The notes below the pieces were generated by a model, which saw nothing but the letters and a program-made list of their open reading frames with translations, was not told where the DNA came from and did not search any database. A stretch of DNA of 64,000 nucleotides from Sphingomonadales bacterium (GTDB lineage: Bacteria > Bacteroidota > Bacteroidia > Flavobacteriales_D > Crocinitomicaceae), in assembly GCA_016872115.1 (NCBI GenBank), contig VHBC01000007.1, positions 1-64,000 on the forward strand, written 5' to 3'. The translations under genes were made by a program, and so were the position numbers. Shown in pieces: positions 16,654-24,547 of this stretch (position 1 is its first letter; each line of letters begins with the position of its first letter).

Positions 16654-18885
16654 ATGAAAAATTTTGTATTATGGGCGCTATTATTTAGCGTTCCAACCTT
16701 TGCTCAGCAAGGTGTTGTCGGTTTTGTGTACGACGCGCAAAATCAAAAACCCATTCAGGGTGTTATTATTTCTATTCCCGCGTTTCAAATTCAAATCCGT
16801 TCTGATGAACAAGGGAGGTTTGCGTTCCCATTTACCTGGGCTGATCAACAAGCCCTGCGTCTCAAGCACTCCGATTACCGTGTTCTTGATACCGTTGTTC
16901 TTGGAGGTGTATCTAACTTACGTTTTACACTTCAGCTAGGTCACATGACTACAGAAGAAGTTACCGTTAGTGGTCAACAACTAGCAGCCCGCAATAAAAA
17001 TACCGTGCCAATAGAAGTGAAGAACATCAAAGACCTTCAATTATCTGGCGCCATGAATGTCCCGGAGTTAATTACCAAAATACCAGGTGTTTATAATAGC
17101 AGTTTGGGAAATGGCATTGCAAAACCCGTCATTCGCGGGATGCAAGGGATGCGCGTGCTGATGCTTGTCAACGGTCTTCGGCTCGAGAACCAACAGTGGG
17201 GTGGAGACCACGGAATAGGTATCGGTGAACTAGCGCTTGGTTCTGTAGAAGTCATTAAAGGCCCGGCATCGGTGCTTTATGGTGCAGATGCTTTAGGTGG
17301 TGTCATTTATTTAGTCGATGAATCCTACGCGCGTATTGGCCAACAAACGCTAGAACTACAACAAAAATGGAATCAGAGCACCAGCGGCACTACATCTAGT
17401 ATTTTATACAAAAATAGCCAAGGCAATAAGCGCTTGCTTTTAGCCGGGAGCTATGCAAATCATGCCGATTTTCTTTTGCCAAATGGGCTTTATGCCAAGA
17501 ACTCTCGCTTTAATGAAGCCGTAGGCAAGATTTCTTATTCTTGGTTTAAGTCCAATCAGGTGCATCAGCTGCGCTATGCTTTCAATAATACAGTTACGGG
17601 CATTCCAGGTCACACACATGATACCTTAGCTACTCCGCTGAGTTTCCAAGTTCCAATTCAAGGCAGACGCTATTCTCTTCCTGCTCAATTTTTTACCAAT
17701 CAACTTTTGAGTTATGAGTACAAGCGTTTTTGGAAGGGCAATGAAGTCCAACTACTTCTGGGCCAAACCCATAACCGTTTGGTTGAATACGACGAAAAAG
17801 TGAGCAAGCCTTTTATGGAAATGGATTTGTTCAATTCGAGCTACCAAGCAAAATTGTCAAAAAAATGGCAGCGTCAGCAACTCGTTTTAGGCGCTGCTGG
17901 CATGCTGCAATTCAACCTCAATTCACCTATTGCTGCCGATCAGCTTTTGCCAGATGCGCGCACTTTTGATCAAGGTCTTTTTGCGTTGTATAAAATTGAA
18001 TTTTCCAATAGGCAGCTTGTTCAAATTGGTGTCCGACAAGATGTGCGTTGGATTCAAACCTTATCTGATTCAATTGCGCTTAAAAAATTGTATGCAAGCC
18101 CTAATCTTTCTGCCGGTTGGTCATGGCAAATGCATTCTCAGTTGCGTCAAAGACTTAATTTTTCAAGTGGTTTTCGGGCGCCTCACCTCAGCGAATTACT
18201 GGCCAACGGTTTCCATCATGGCGCTTTGCGTTACGAAATTGGCGATACAAGTTTGGCGCCTGAGCGTAGCTTGCAGCTCGATTGGTTTACTGAATTTACT
18301 GCCGAGCATGGTGACTTTTCAATCAATCCGTATCACGCATGGCTCAAGGATTACATCTACCTTCAGCCAAATGGTTCATCCATGGACGGCATTCCCGTTT
18401 TTGAATATGCGCAACTTCAAGATGGCAGGCTTTACGGTGTTGACCTGAGCGCACACTATCATCCGCATTGGCTGCATAACCTGCATTGGGAGGGCAATTT
18501 TTCTTACATTCAATTCTCGAGCTCGAAAGACAGCGCCATTTCCTTATTGCCACCTAGCCGTTTACAAAATGAACTTAAATACCACTGGGATTTCTCTAGT
18601 AAGGTCAAGAAAGTAGAGCTTAGTTTAAGTCATTTGTGGATGGCTGCTCAGAACCGGGTAGCATTTTTGGAAACACCGAGTCAAAATTATCAGGTGATCA
18701 ACCTAAATGCCCGTTTGTATTTCGAATACAAAGGAAATTGGCTACTACAAACTGGCGTGCGTAATTTAACCAACGCCAACTACATCGATCATCTGTCTCG
18801 ATTAAAAAACATAGGAATGCCGGGTCCTGGTAGGCATTTTTATCTCAGTTTAAAATACCAGGTTCAAAATCAAATTAAAAAATAA
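16654..18885 (+). CDS. TonB-dependent receptor, probably metal related
   Basis: This outer-membrane beta-barrel has 743 residues. It has a signal peptide (about 1-17), a CarboxypepD_reg-like domain (GVVGFVYDAQNQKPIQGVII onward, about 19-100), and a plug domain with PGVYNSSLGNGIAKPVIRGM and VEVIKGPASVLYGADALGGVI (about 140-225). The barrel ends in an aromatic C-terminal segment (HFYLSLKYQVQNQIKK). The plug loop ENQQWGGDHGIG and the extracellular loop GIPGHTHDTLATP are His containing, as in zinc/copper-type receptors. The flanking His-rich and Cys-rich small genes support metal or metallophore uptake, but the substrate is not proven. Confidence 0.9.
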   Translation: MKNFVLWALLFSVPTFAQQGVVGFVYDAQNQKPIQGVIISIPAFQIQIRSDEQGRFAFPFTWADQQALRLKHSDYRVLDTVVLGGVSNLRFTLQLGHMTTEEVTVSGQQLAARNKNTVPIEVKNIKDLQLSGAMNVPELITKIPGVYNSSLGNGIAKPVIRGMQGMRVLMLVNGLRLENQQWGGDHGIGIGELALGSVEVIKGPASVLYGADALGGVIYLVDESYARIGQQTLELQQKWNQSTSGTTSSILYKNSQGNKRLLLAGSYANHADFLLPNGLYAKNSRFNEAVGKISYSWFKSNQVHQLRYAFNNTVTGIPGHTHDTLATPLSFQVPIQGRRYSLPAQFFTNQLLSYEYKRFWKGNEVQLLLGQTHNRLVEYDEKVSKPFMEMDLFNSSYQAKLSKKWQRQQLVLGAAGMLQFNLNSPIAADQLLPDARTFDQGLFALYKIEFSNRQLVQIGVRQDVRWIQTLSDSIALKKLYASPNLSAGWSWQMHSQLRQRLNFSSGFRAPHLSELLANGFHHGALRYEIGDTSLAPERSLQLDWFTEFTAEHGDFSINPYHAWLKDYIYLQPNGSSMDGIPVFEYAQLQDGRLYGVDLSAHYHPHWLHNLHWEGNFSYIQFSSSKDSAISLLPPSRLQNELKYHWDFSSKVKKVELSLSHLWMAAQNRVAFLETPSQNYQVINLNARLYFEYKGNWLLQTGVRNLTNANYIDHLSRLKNIGMPGPGRHFYLSLKYQVQNQIKK

Positions 18886-18891
18886 AAAAAA

Positions 18892-19101
18892 ATGAAAAAA
18901 ATGATTTTAAGTGCAGTCGTATTGGGTTTTTTGACCCTTTCTTGCGGAAAAAACAAATGCGCAGAATGCCATTATGATGGGCCAAATGGCGAGGTGGAAA
19001 TGGGCGTTTACTGTGGTGATTCGCTACATGATTTAGAGGAATTAGGAACTTATACTGATAGCCTAGGGACTTCTTACGTAGTTCATTGCGGTGAGCATTA
19101 A
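18892..19101 (+). CDS. Small Cys-rich lipoprotein
   Basis: The 69-aa product has a lipoprotein signal with lipobox LTLSC (Cys18) and, in the mature part, four more cysteines in KNKCAECHYD, VYCGD and VVHCGEH, with nearby histidines. It starts 6 bp after the receptor stop in an A-rich stretch; an in-frame ATG at 18901 is an alternative start. No family is recognised. Position and ligand-like residues suggest a periplasmic-face accessory of the TonB-dependent receptor. Confidence 0.72.
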   Translation: MKKMILSAVVLGFLTLSCGKNKCAECHYDGPNGEVEMGVYCGDSLHDLEELGTYTDSLGTSYVVHCGEH

Positions 19102-19156
19102 AGCCAAGAACTTTTCAACATTTCTCGGATTTGTTGATAAGTGCAAACCCGATAAG

Positions 19157-19187
19157 TTGTCAAGATGACACAAAGGGCCTAATTTTA
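19157..19187 (+). promoter_or_regulatory. Dyad-rich promoter of the TPR-ComA-WD40 operon
   Basis: TTG (19157-19159), 20 bp, TAATTTTA (19180-19187, one mismatch from TAnnTTTG). A perfect palindrome TGTCA-AGA-TGACA (19158-19170) lies between the two elements. Two direct copies of GATAAGT (19136-19142 and 19151-19157) sit upstream, the second touching the -33. The -7 falls inside the inverted repeat listed at 19174-19204. The arrangement looks like a regulated promoter; all of this is motif inference. Confidence 0.45.
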
Positions 19188-19204
19188 TATAAGAATTGGG
19201 CCCT
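19174..19204. repeat. Inverted repeat abutting the TPR gene start codon
   Basis: The left arm AGGGCCTAATT (19174-19184) pairs with AATTGGGCCCT (19194-19204) around a 9-nt AT-rich centre, with one T/G pair as the only imperfection. It ends directly before the ATG at 19205. It covers the predicted -7 box and transcription start, so a DNA operator is more likely than an mRNA hairpin, although an RNA role is possible if transcription starts further upstream. Confidence 0.6.
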
Positions 19205-20602
19205 ATGTTTGACGACGACGAAGAAGACTACACCGACAGCAGCTTAAGTGAAGACATCGAGCACTTCGAGGCCCACCTGAAAGGTCAAACCTTAAATTTT
19301 ATTGACAGCGACCGCCTAGAAGGCCTAATTGACCACTACCTCATTCAAGGACAATTCAACAAAGCGAAAATTGCCGCAGAATTTGGAATTTACCAATTTG
19401 CCTACAACCCAATGTTTAAGCTCCGCAAAGCCCAAGCTTTAGGTGGTTTAGGTTTACTACAAGAGGCCTTAGATTGTGTCATACAACTCGAAAAGCAAGA
19501 GCTAGAAAGTGCTGAACTTTATTTGACAAAAGCCTCCATTCACGCTCAACAACGCGAACACAAGCAAGCCATCCGTTACTTCAAGCTGGCGCTTGAGCAT
19601 TCTGACCCTGCTGAGCACGATTACATTTACCTCGATATCGCCATCGAATTCGAGCGCTTGCAGCAATACCAAGACGCCATAGACACGCTTCATCAAGCCC
19701 TTAGGGCCAACATACATAACGAAGCTGCACTCTATGAACTCGGGCGGTGCTACGACGCGCTGGGTGCCACAGAGGCATCCATTGACGCTTATCTCAAATT
19801 TATTGATGAGCAACCCTTCTCAAGCACTGCTTGGTACAACTTAGGCAATGCCTACAGTAAAATGGAAAACTACGATAAAGCCGTCTGGGCTTATGAATAC
19901 GCCATTCTGATCAACGAAGAATTCGGTCCTGCTCATTTCAATCTCGGTAATGCATTTTTATCGCTAGAAAAATACCACAAAGCCATCGAACATTTCGAGC
20001 TCTGCATGAAGCACGACGGCGATGACGCCATGGCCCTTTGCTATATCGGAGAATCCTACGAACAGCTGAATGAATTAGCACTTTCGAAGCATTACTACAA
20101 ACTCAGCATTGACCTCGAACCAATGTTGCCAGAAGCCTGGTTGGGCTTAGGAATAGTGGAAGATTTACTTGGCTCTACCAAAGAAGGTATTGTCTTAATT
20201 CAAAAAGCCCTTGATTACGACCCAGAAAATGCGGGCATTCACCACGTTTTAGCTGGCGCATACCAAAAAATTGACCTCCGAACTGAAGCCGACTATCACT
20301 ACCTTAAAAGTCTTGAAATCCTGCCTGATGACCAAGAGGCTCTTTCGGATTACATCAGTTTTCTCTCAGAAGAGTCCTTGTCGGGTGCACAAGCATTTTT
20401 ATTGGCTTTTGAATCCCAACAACCCCAGTTATTAGATATCAAGCTTCATTTGGTCAATGTCAAATGGCAACTTGGTCAACACACCGAAGCAAAGCATCTG
20501 TACCGCCAATGTTTAGAACAAGATGCCACGCACTCTAAAACCATTTTTGAAATCAATCCGAAGCTCCTAGACGACTCCGATTTTTTATACTTAGCTGATT
20601 AA
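19205..20602 (+). CDS. Tetratricopeptide-repeat protein
   Basis: The 465-aa cytosolic protein has a very acidic N-terminus (MFDDDEEDYTDSSLSEDIEHFEAHL) and then about ten TPR units. Clear ones are DHYLIQGQFNKAKIAAEFGI, TAWYNLGNAYSKMENYDKAVWAYEYAI, GPAHFNLGNAFLSLEKYHKAIEHFELC and PEAWLGLGIVEDLLGSTKEGIVLIQKAL (listed in part). There is no signal peptide. The ATG at 19205 is preferred to the TTG at 19196 because that one lies inside the inverted repeat. It is the first gene of a four-gene operon, 2 bp before the ComA-like gene. It is probably a protein-interaction scaffold; partners are unknown. Confidence 0.9.
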   Translation: MFDDDEEDYTDSSLSEDIEHFEAHLKGQTLNFIDSDRLEGLIDHYLIQGQFNKAKIAAEFGIYQFAYNPMFKLRKAQALGGLGLLQEALDCVIQLEKQELESAELYLTKASIHAQQREHKQAIRYFKLALEHSDPAEHDYIYLDIAIEFERLQQYQDAIDTLHQALRANIHNEAALYELGRCYDALGATEASIDAYLKFIDEQPFSSTAWYNLGNAYSKMENYDKAVWAYEYAILINEEFGPAHFNLGNAFLSLEKYHKAIEHFELCMKHDGDDAMALCYIGESYEQLNELALSKHYYKLSIDLEPMLPEAWLGLGIVEDLLGSTKEGIVLIQKALDYDPENAGIHHVLAGAYQKIDLRTEADYHYLKSLEILPDDQEALSDYISFLSEESLSGAQAFLLAFESQQPQLLDIKLHLVNVKWQLGQHTEAKHLYRQCLEQDATHSKTIFEINPKLLDDSDFLYLAD

Positions 20603-20604
20603 TC

Positions 20605-21429
20605 ATGAACTTCAAACTTTCTTTTATACCTAAACGCAGTGAAAAACCCCGTAATACGGGCGTAACCATGATGATGGATAAAGGTCTTGGTCTCCAAGAA
20701 ACCGAACACTTTATTGAAGCCTCTGGACACTTAACAGATATTGTTAAGTTTGGTTTTGGAACTGCATTTGTGACGGGCCAGCTAGAAGAAAAAATCAAAA
20801 TGTACAAAGAGGCAGGTATCAGACCTTATTTTGGTGGTACCCTCTTCGAAGCTTTTTACGCCCGCGGTATGTTCAATAATTTTGTCAAGTTGCTCGATAA
20901 ATACGACCTCGATCTCGCTGAAATCTCTGATGGCTCTATCATTATTCCCCACGACGAAAAATGTAAGCTTATTCATGAATTATCCCAAACGCGTACCGTT
21001 CTTTCCGAGGTAGGTTCAAAAGACAGCGGTATCATGATTTCTCCGGCCAAATGGGTTCGCCTCATGAAAGCCGAATTGGCAGCCGGTAGCTGGAAAGTTA
21101 TTGCAGAAGGCAGAGAGGCTGGCAATGTAGGCGTATTCCGACCAAACGGAACCGCACACACCATGCTTATCAATCGCATTATTGCCAATGTCAAGCCCGA
21201 AGACATCTTATGGGAAGCGCCACAAAAAAACCAACAAGTTTGGTTTATCAAACTGTTTGGCGCTGAGGTAAACCTCGGCAATATTGCCCCAAATGACCTC
21301 ATTCCACTCGAATGCTTGCGCCTAGGTCTTCGTGGTGACACTTTCTTTGATTTCTTGCCAAAATCATACGCAGACCGCCTCAAACAAGTCAATGATGAGT
21401 CAGACGACGACTTAAGCGATGAGCAATAA
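20605..21429 (+). CDS. Phosphosulfolactate synthase (ComA family)
   Basis: ComA adds sulfite to phosphoenolpyruvate to give phosphosulfolactate, the first step of coenzyme M synthesis in methanogens; homologues occur in bacteria that do not make coenzyme M. The 274-aa protein shows the family motifs MMMDKGLG (about 18-25), DIVKFGFGTAF, GGTLFEAFYARG, LAEISDGSI, VLSEVG, IAEGREAGNVGVF, WEAPQKNQQVWFI, EVNLGNIAP and LRLGLRGDTFF. The phosphate- and magnesium-site residues look intact. In Bacteroidota it may feed sulfonate or sulfonolipid metabolism, which is inference. It lies between a TPR and a WD40 gene and overlaps the latter by 11 bp. Confidence 0.9.
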   Translation: MNFKLSFIPKRSEKPRNTGVTMMMDKGLGLQETEHFIEASGHLTDIVKFGFGTAFVTGQLEEKIKMYKEAGIRPYFGGTLFEAFYARGMFNNFVKLLDKYDLDLAEISDGSIIIPHDEKCKLIHELSQTRTVLSEVGSKDSGIMISPAKWVRLMKAELAAGSWKVIAEGREAGNVGVFRPNGTAHTMLINRIIANVKPEDILWEAPQKNQQVWFIKLFGAEVNLGNIAPNDLIPLECLRLGLRGDTFFDFLPKSYADRLKQVNDESDDDLSDEQ

Positions 21430-22330
21430 TAACCCCACGCTACCTTATTTTAAATTCCAACAATTAAGTGGTCACCAAGGGCCTATTTATGCGCTTAGCC
21501 AAGACAACTCTTTTTTTTATTCGGCAGCTGCCGACAAATTTGTAGCGCGTTGGCATCAATCAAATGGCCATCAGGATCACTTTGCCGTACGCTGCACCCA
21601 AGCGCCTTTTAGTTTATTTGTAGAACCCGCATTACATCATTTAGTAATTGGCTTATCTGACGGACACATTCATGTCATAGATACTCAGCAAAAACAAGAG
21701 GTCAAAAACCTAATTGTGCACCAAAGTGCTGTCTTTGCCATCAATTTTAATAGGTTTCTGCAACAATATTATACCGCCGATGCCGACGGATTATTGGCTA
21801 TCTGGGACGCTGATTGGCAATTATTGCTTCAAATACCTTTAGCCTGCGGGAAAATCCGTCAGATTGAAATCGCTCCCGATGGAAAATTTCTATTGTTAGC
21901 CTGTGCCGATGGGATCATTCGAAAGCTAGACACCACCTTTTTCAACGAAGATTTTCAGTTTAAAGCCCATTCAGATGCTTGTACAACATTAACTATAATT
22001 GAAAACGGAAATATCTTGAGCGCTGGCAAGGACGCTTATGTCAGGCGCTGGACCGCCGGGGGGCAGCAAATCAACGCTTTTCCAGCGCATTTAGGAACCA
22101 TCTATCAGCTTAAAATTTTAAATACACCTCATTACGTGACCGCCTCGCGGGACAAAACCATCAAAATTTGGGATCTTCAAACAGATCAAATTGTACAGCG
22201 TATCGACCTTCAAATGGCTGGGCATCGGCATTCAATCAATACCGTGTTGTGTACAGAAAACGGATTTTTAAGTGCCGGCGACGATAAAAGAATTATCGAA
22301 TGGCGCTTTTCCAATTCAAAAACACCTTAA
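21419..22330 (+). CDS. WD40-repeat protein
   Basis: The 303-aa protein is a predicted seven-bladed beta-propeller with recognisable WD repeats: FQQLSGHQGPIYALSQD with FVARWHQ, AVFAINFNRF with LLAIWDADW, and FKAHSDACTTLTI with AYVRRWTAGG. FPAHLGTIYQL with KTIKIWDLQ and GHRHSINTVL with RIIEWRF complete the set. There is no signal peptide, so it should be cytosolic. The start lies inside the comA-like gene (11-bp overlap), indicating coupled translation. WD40 propellers dock proteins; the physical link to a TPR protein and ComA suggests a complex, which remains untested. Confidence 0.9.
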   Translation: MSNNNPTLPYFKFQQLSGHQGPIYALSQDNSFFYSAAADKFVARWHQSNGHQDHFAVRCTQAPFSLFVEPALHHLVIGLSDGHIHVIDTQQKQEVKNLIVHQSAVFAINFNRFLQQYYTADADGLLAIWDADWQLLLQIPLACGKIRQIEIAPDGKFLLLACADGIIRKLDTTFFNEDFQFKAHSDACTTLTIIENGNILSAGKDAYVRRWTAGGQQINAFPAHLGTIYQLKILNTPHYVTASRDKTIKIWDLQTDQIVQRIDLQMAGHRHSINTVLCTENGFLSAGDDKRIIEWRFSNSKTP

Positions 22331-22339
22331 TTTTAACAC

Positions 22340-24547
22340 ATGAAATCGCTGCTCTTGTTTTTTGTGTTTATCAGCGTACAAGCCACAGCGCAGTTTCAGT
22401 TCAATTTCACCAATTATATTCCAGTTGTTTCCGATGGCCAATCGCTCCAAAAGGCTTGGTCTGGGGGGCTGAATAACCCACAGTTTTCCAGTTTAGACTA
22501 CGATTTCGATGGCGACGACGACCTTTTGGTCTTCGATCGCAGTGCCAATCAGCTACGGGTTTTCAAACACCAAGTTTCAGGTGTTGCGCATTCCTATGAA
22601 TTAGACCCTCGGGCCCATTTATTTTTTCCTGCCGAGCTTACCTATCGAGTGACTACTTATGACTACGACCAAGACGGAAGAAAAGATTTATTTTGCTATG
22701 CGGTAGGTGGCCTCAGGGCTTACAGGAATATCGGCTCAGCTGCTACTGGTCTGCAATGGCAAGTGTATAGCCCTTATTTGGTATCCAATTATGAAGGCCC
22801 TGTCTTGAATTTGTATGTCAGTGGAGCCGATATTCCTGCTTTGGTCGATGTGGAAGGCGATGGCGATATGGATATTTTGACTTACCACATAAGTGGAGAA
22901 TACCTACAGTATCATCAAAACCAAAGCCAAGAGTTGTATGGGCACTCGGATTCTTTGGTGTTTATCCTTAAAAATAGATGTTGGGGGAAATACCGAGAAG
23001 ACGTTACCTCAAACATACTTTTTTTAAATGATCAAAGCCCTCATTGCACTGACGGCAATGTTGTAAATCCTCAACTTAAACCGGACGAGGCACCTAAGGC
23101 GCATGCTGGATCTACTGTTTTGGCTATTGACCTCGACCAATCAGGCGTCCTGGACCTCGTTTTGGGCGATGTCGCTTATGGCAATCTCATTCGCCTCATC
23201 AATGGAGGTACAGCGCCAAATACCAATTCGGCGATGGTCAGTGCAGATTACAACTTTCCGAGTAACACAACGCCAGCAAACGTTCTTATTTTTCCGGCGG
23301 CTTACTTTCTAGATATCGATTTTGATCAGCAAAAAGACCTCATAGTAGCGCCAAATGCCAATAATGTTTCCGAGAATGAAAACAGCGTCTGGTATTATAA
23401 AAATTTAGGAAGCAATCAAGCACCTGTTTTTACTTTTCAAGACAACGATTGGCTGCAAGGCGACATGATAGACCATGGCGCAGGCTCTGTGCCATTGGCC
23501 TACGATGTCAATTCTGATGGTCTGACGGATTTGTTAGTGGCCAATTTTTATGCTTACAAGCCCGTTTTGGATAAAACCGCCCGTATCGCATATTATCAAA
23601 ACATAGGCACGGCCACTGCACCACAATTGCTTCTCATCGATGAAGACTTTTTGAATCTATCTACCGCAAATTTAGGCTTGCGTTTGCTGCCTGCTTTAGG
23701 AGACCTCAATGCCGATAATAAACCTGATTTGATCTTAGGGAAAGACGACGGCCAATTGATATATTTTAGTAACTCAAGTACAGGCACAAATCCAAGCTTT
23801 CAGTTGCAAGCTACGGCCCTTACAGATCAAAATAACCAAGTAATTCAAGTGCCGCTATTTTCAGCTCCTCAATTATTCGATTACAACCTAGATGGCTTAC
23901 TCGATCTCATCATTGGACATAAAGGTGGTTTATTGCAGTACTATCAAAATACCGGTTCTACGGCAAACCCCCAATTTACTTTAATTACAACGAATTTAGG
24001 TAGCGTCAACGTGCAGAGCAATGGTCCTGACGGCTTTGCTGTTCCGCATTTTTTTCGATACCTCGATACAACATATCTTCTGGTTGGTGCCCTCGATGGT
24101 TACATTCATTTTTATGACGGAATCAACGGAAATGCGAATGATGTATTCAATGAACGAAGCGCTGATTTTCTTGGTCTAAGTGCCCAAATTGGAGCCTACG
24201 CGGCGCCCGCTATTGCCAATTACGATAATGATAACCATTTAGAACTTTTGACAGGACAAGATTTGGGTGGTTTATTTTTACTCGAAAACGAGCCTGGTTC
24301 TGACTTGAGCGTTCAGCAAAATGCTTTGCCCGGATTAATAGTTTTTCCCAATCCAACTAAAGGTACTTTAAGATTAATGGGAATACAAGGAAATACAGAT
24401 GGCACAATCTTTAATTTACTCGGCCAGAAAGTAATTGGGTTAACCGATTTAATCGATCAATATACCATTGATATTTCTGATTTACCAACCGGAACTTATA
24501 TCTTGAAACTAGAAAACGGCCAGGGCACTGTTGTTGTGAAGCAATAA
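22340..24547 (+). CDS. FG-GAP/VCBS-repeat protein with T9SS type A sorting domain
   Basis: The 735-aa exported protein has a signal peptide (about 1-19, ending ATAQ). Many FG-GAP/VCBS units with Asp-rich calcium-loop motifs follow (SLDYDFDGDDDLLVFDRS, TTYDYDQDGRKDLFCY, DVEGDGDMDILTY, DVNSDGLTDLLVANF, DYNLDGLLDLIIGHKGG). The C-terminal secretion signal of about 70 residues starts near PGLIVFPNPTKGTLRL and has NLLGQKV and LPTGTYILKLENG, the T9SS type A pattern. It is therefore likely exported to the cell surface by the PorQ-containing system. It ends the four-gene operon, 9 bp after the WD40 gene. Confidence 0.92.
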   Translation: MKSLLLFFVFISVQATAQFQFNFTNYIPVVSDGQSLQKAWSGGLNNPQFSSLDYDFDGDDDLLVFDRSANQLRVFKHQVSGVAHSYELDPRAHLFFPAELTYRVTTYDYDQDGRKDLFCYAVGGLRAYRNIGSAATGLQWQVYSPYLVSNYEGPVLNLYVSGADIPALVDVEGDGDMDILTYHISGEYLQYHQNQSQELYGHSDSLVFILKNRCWGKYREDVTSNILFLNDQSPHCTDGNVVNPQLKPDEAPKAHAGSTVLAIDLDQSGVLDLVLGDVAYGNLIRLINGGTAPNTNSAMVSADYNFPSNTTPANVLIFPAAYFLDIDFDQQKDLIVAPNANNVSENENSVWYYKNLGSNQAPVFTFQDNDWLQGDMIDHGAGSVPLAYDVNSDGLTDLLVANFYAYKPVLDKTARIAYYQNIGTATAPQLLLIDEDFLNLSTANLGLRLLPALGDLNADNKPDLILGKDDGQLIYFSNSSTGTNPSFQLQATALTDQNNQVIQVPLFSAPQLFDYNLDGLLDLIIGHKGGLLQYYQNTGSTANPQFTLITTNLGSVNVQSNGPDGFAVPHFFRYLDTTYLLVGALDGYIHFYDGINGNANDVFNERSADFLGLSAQIGAYAAPAIANYDNDNHLELLTGQDLGGLFLLENEPGSDLSVQQNALPGLIVFPNPTKGTLRLMGIQGNTDGTIFNLLGQKVIGLTDLIDQYTIDISDLPTGTYILKLENGQGTVVVKQ

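Follow-up and report, generated by a model that had tools for sequence, protein, structure and literature searches.

A bacterium of the Crocinitomicaceae (Bacteroidota) carries a gene for a ComA-family phosphosulfolactate synthase closely packed among genes for a TPR protein, a WD40 protein and an FG-GAP protein. The locus lies in a stretch of 64,000 nucleotides (assembly GCA_016872115.1, contig VHBC01000007.1, positions 1 to 64,000), referred to below as the window. It raises the question of what such an enzyme makes in Bacteroidota and whether its neighbours work with it. The original prediction was of a scaffolded, sulfonate-forming enzyme. The observation behind it is sound, and its core is probably ordinary: a ComA-family enzyme that makes sulfolactate together with ComB and is encoded inside an old gene string.

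Gene layout of the locus

From the sequence and the ORF calls, four ORFs follow each other on the same strand in the order TPR, ComA, WD40 and FG-GAP, with spacings of 2, -11 and 9 bp, exactly as had been claimed (Table 1). The gene content proposed for 19102-24547 also holds, but its left edge does not, since the ATG start codon of the TPR gene lies about 100 bp downstream of 19102, with an in-frame TTG at 19196. Position 19102 is the first base past the stop of the upstream 69-aa ORF. Within the TPR-ComA-WD40 string, ComA probably shares a transcript with its neighbours. The nearest named relatives of the locus are metagenome assemblies of Crocinitomicaceae and other Flavobacteriales.

Table 1. 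Features of the locus and its upstream flank (positions in the window)
Feature	Position	Strand	Evidence or remark
TonB-dependent receptor, upstream neighbour outside the unit	16654..18885	+	PF00593 2e-24
69-aa ORF, lipoprotein-like N-terminus, upstream neighbour outside the unit	18892..19101	+	sequence
TPR protein, 465 aa, full-length TPR solenoid	19205..20602	+	Pfam TPR_1 2e-35
ComA, phosphosulfolactate synthase family, 274 aa	20605..21429	+	PF02679 1.8e-87
WD40 beta-propeller, 303 aa	21419..22330	+	PF00400 4e-26; 11-bp overlap with ComA
FG-GAP repeat protein with T9SS sorting tail	22340..24547	+	PF13517 2.8e-21, PF18962 6e-11

An intact and old ComA-family gene

The ComA protein matches the whole PF02679 model (1-243) with 293 bits against a cutoff of 25.2. 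Its structural relatives are YitD of Bacillus subtilis (PDB 1U83, 40% identity, 1.4e-47) and ComA of Methanocaldococcus jannaschii (1QWG, 42% identity, 6.5e-44), the latter a member of the same family with the conserved polar columns in common. It falls below the curated cutoff of the NCBIfam archaeal-ComA equivalog TIGR03849 (244.4 versus 280 bits). Alignment shows that 69 of the 101 columns common to YitD and M. jannaschii ComA are kept, including the polar residues D25, K48, E82, E106, E135, K139, E168, R170, E171, E204, K208, N226, E236, R239 and D245. The motifs had been described as intact, and indeed the conserved polar columns of the solved ComA enzymes are retained; the kept charged or polar columns are near-invariant among 31 Bacteroidota sequences, and the importance of these residues is judged by such conservation.

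The ComA tree matches taxonomy and contains a Bacteroidota clade in which order and class form supported groups, so the gene is old and vertically inherited here. Judged by dN, it has also changed least among the four genes (dS is saturated in most comparisons): against the loci L034 and L033, dN is 0.07 for ComA, 0.09-0.17 for TPR, 0.32-0.48 for WD40 and 0.21-0.22 for FG-GAP. A search of the open literature found no paper on a Bacteroidota ComA.

Other Bacteroidota encode a further ComA paralog, divergent in sequence, which bears a GVTEIRGPYY motif and is devoid of several conserved residues (L200 ORF 8, L182 ORF 5). The paralogs of this group lack K139, K208, N226, D245 and the R170/E171 pair (numbering of the present ComA) and presumably resemble plant HSA32, HSA32-type relatives being members of the same Pfam family as ComA.

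ComB and the probable end product

The original prediction missed a ComB gene in the same genome, located on another contig than ComA (G000:C1:34102-34767, 258 bits). Among 60 relatives, ComB is found in 43 of the 51 genomes with ComA and in one of the nine without it (p ~4e-5, hypergeometric, by hand and uncorrected for phylogeny). Across the phylum, a cross-tally by hand, likewise uncorrected for phylogeny, gives 102/103 genomes with ComA above cutoff and 121/289 others. The unlinked ComB is a better-supported partner of ComA than the genes that adjoin it. ComB is also frequent where the phylum set shows no ComA, and may therefore act on further substrates; conversely, eight ComA-bearing relatives have no ComB match, among them the fairly complete G001, G033, G040 and G051, so that another phosphatase or another product is possible. 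ComB adjoins a gcvT-like gene or one resembling S1/P1 nucleases (both named from inspection of the sequences), with no evident sulfonate operon. In the present genome it overlaps the downstream S1/P1-nuclease-like gene (L205 8100-9891, contig C1), and the same pair occurs in L212 and L214.

Bacillus subtilis provides the closest known system, in which YitD and YitC are ComA and ComB and make the sulfolactate of spores, where it is an end product. As in that system, both enzymes are present here and ComC is not needed for the product; the differences are that the organism belongs to the Bacteroidota, that the genes of ComA and ComB are on separate contigs and that ComA sits in a TPR-WD40 string. 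The ComC family (PF02615) has no match in the genome under study and is absent in 59 of the 60 relatives. By this route, ComA would convert sulfite and phosphoenolpyruvate into (R)-2-phospho-3-sulfolactate, which the ComB phosphatase would dephosphorylate to (R)-3-sulfolactate. As there is no ComC-type dehydrogenase, sulfolactate is probably the end product and could serve as a solute, an export product or a sulfite sink.

The PAPS reductase family (PF01507) has no match in the genome either, so canonical sulfate assimilation seems absent. Assimilatory sulfate reduction was also discarded as the sulfite source on the grounds that the family does not track ComA in the relatives; G009 and G014 possess PAPS reductase and lack ComA.

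Conservation of gene order

The order of the genes was followed in 80 named loci, which were located via ComA and are therefore silent on genomes without it. TPR adjoins ComA in all 80, WD40 in 75 and FG-GAP in 25. Within the phylum set, 31 of the 36 class genomes that carry ComA have TPR immediately upstream of it, against none of the 18 genomes outside the class in which both are placed. This adjacency is therefore a class-level feature, and its frequency is far beyond chance. The TPR-ComA-WD40 order is a family-level feature, and the linkage to FG-GAP is local to the nearest clade. Conservation of the order beyond close relatives had been proposed as a check of the idea, and it is borne out family-wide for the three genes and class-wide for the first two, whereas membership of the FG-GAP protein in a common system finds no such backing.

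Genomes without ComA provide a natural check of the scaffold idea. ComA is missing in nine of the 60 relatives. Four of these (G009, G014, G018 and G030) keep TPR and WD40 abutting, the WD40 start being a few tens of bases from the TPR stop or overlapping it. The junctions of G014 and G030 are near-identical and may reflect one event, so that perhaps two or three of the losses are independent. In G052 and G058, TPR is retained although ComA is missing. Homologues of WD40 occur unlinked in other families. One assembly of the same genus group (G012) has neither TPR, ComA nor WD40 and has DUF368; it is possibly misplaced or mixed.

The TPR protein and its most widespread neighbour

The TPR family aligns end to end across the class, its AlphaFold model is all-helical (mean pLDDT 93.4) and no signal peptide was seen in the protein. 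The family has members in 308 of 392 phylum genomes and extends to families that have neither ComA nor ComB. The neighbour that accompanies it most widely is DUF368. Where both places are listed, DUF368 lies directly downstream of TPR in 28/31 genomes outside the class and in 15/25 ComA-less genomes of the class, and in all eight class genomes of the phylum set with the three genes, ComA is found between the two. Direct succession of TPR and DUF368, also with ComA absent or elsewhere, is seen in L224, L226, L232, L234 and L235. From the taxonomic spread rather than from tree reconstruction, we infer that the TPR-DUF368 pair predates ComA in the string.

The other families of the order usually show the string TPR-ComA-(rhodanese)-DUF368-AroE, with gene names assigned by phmmer among the neighbours and by inspection rather than by a Pfam scan, DUF368 alone being confirmed by PF04018. 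The rhodanese-like ORF of 105 aa follows ComA in several Flavobacteriales families (e.g. L143 6775-7092) and could bear on sulfite supply. In family f21 (L174, L176, L178), a DedA-type gene comes after ComA, with AroE next in L176; the DedA-type gene is a non-homologous candidate translocase in the place of DUF368. DUF368 (PopT) and DedA are both candidate translocases for undecaprenyl phosphate (PMC9876793). Elsewhere in the phylum, such genes are conserved next to TPR, ComA or both, but DUF368 has no match in the present genome or in 35 of 36 relatives of the same genus.

Weighing the explanations

The reading that we favour, and consider somewhat probable, is that ComA works as an enzyme and, with ComB, makes (R)-sulfolactate, while TPR is maintained separately in an older string. 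In this explanation the TPR gene, most widely accompanied by that of the DUF368 translocase, would be retained for its own sake; ComA would sit inside its string, and WD40 would hold a place there in a family devoid of DUF368. Two other fates of ComA carry far less weight. A drift to a non-catalytic role, as suspected for its plant HSA32 relatives, would fit the score under the archaeal equivalog cutoff and the eight relatives with ComA and without ComB; it is nonetheless very improbable and was set aside on the intact columns, several of which the separate Bacteroidota paralogs have lost, and ComA is moreover under strong constraint. A place in the coenzyme M pathway, like that in methanogens or in alkene-oxidising bacteria, has next to no probability. 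ComA catalyses the first step of this pathway and has bacterial plasmid homologues in Xanthobacter, Mycolicibacterium and Nocardioides, but ComC is absent, which speaks against the methanogen-type route, no coenzyme M genes were seen beside ComA at its loci and, unlike in M. jannaschii, sulfolactate is not evidently passed on to coenzyme M. The suggested link to sulfonolipids is unsupported, since in the published pathway these lipids are built from phosphoserine by way of cysteate synthase and an acyltransferase, with no part for ComA (PMC11211663).

The neighbours allow further readings. That TPR and WD40 scaffold ComA into a sulfonate-feeding complex, with FG-GAP as its exported partner, agrees with the class-wide and family-wide gene orders and with the overlaps or tiny gaps, and a scaffold with further clients could outlive ComA. 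This model, the one first proposed, is now improbable and was dropped as the main explanation: TPR and WD40 are not lost together with ComA and stay joined in genomes without it, so they are probably not its scaffold, TPR is found phylum-wide without ComA and often beside DUF368, WD40 homologues elsewhere are unlinked and the FG-GAP linkage is limited to one clade. The tight TPR-ComA spacing in Flavobacteriales may still permit a regulatory or physical link. Slightly less improbable, though still unlikely, is a role of TPR with DUF368 or DedA in undecaprenyl-phosphate recycling, with ComA also bearing on envelope physiology and for that reason staying in the string. It draws on the TPR-DUF368 adjacency outside the class and in ComA-less genomes of the class, on the position of ComA between the two genes and on DedA after ComA in f21; against it, AroE and rhodanese in the same string may point to plain persistence of gene order, and DUF368 is missing in the genus where TPR and ComA mostly stay. 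A bolder and rather doubtful proposal is that TPR acts throughout the phylum as a cytosolic partner in undecaprenyl-phosphate recycling and that ComA and ComB of Bacteroidota constitute a sulfolactate pathway not described before, with its first gene lodged in an envelope string. Separate maintenance of TPR beside a working ComA remains the preferred explanation.

Significance

The tempting scaffold reading is thus weakened, and the TPR-DUF368 pairing is a lead worth keeping. These findings suggest a capacity to produce sulfolactate, which is a currency of the sulfur cycle, in a large group of Bacteroidota with few cultured members. They also draw attention to an unstudied TPR protein encoded phylum-wide beside the gene of a candidate lipid-carrier translocase, an association that is genetically testable in cultured species.
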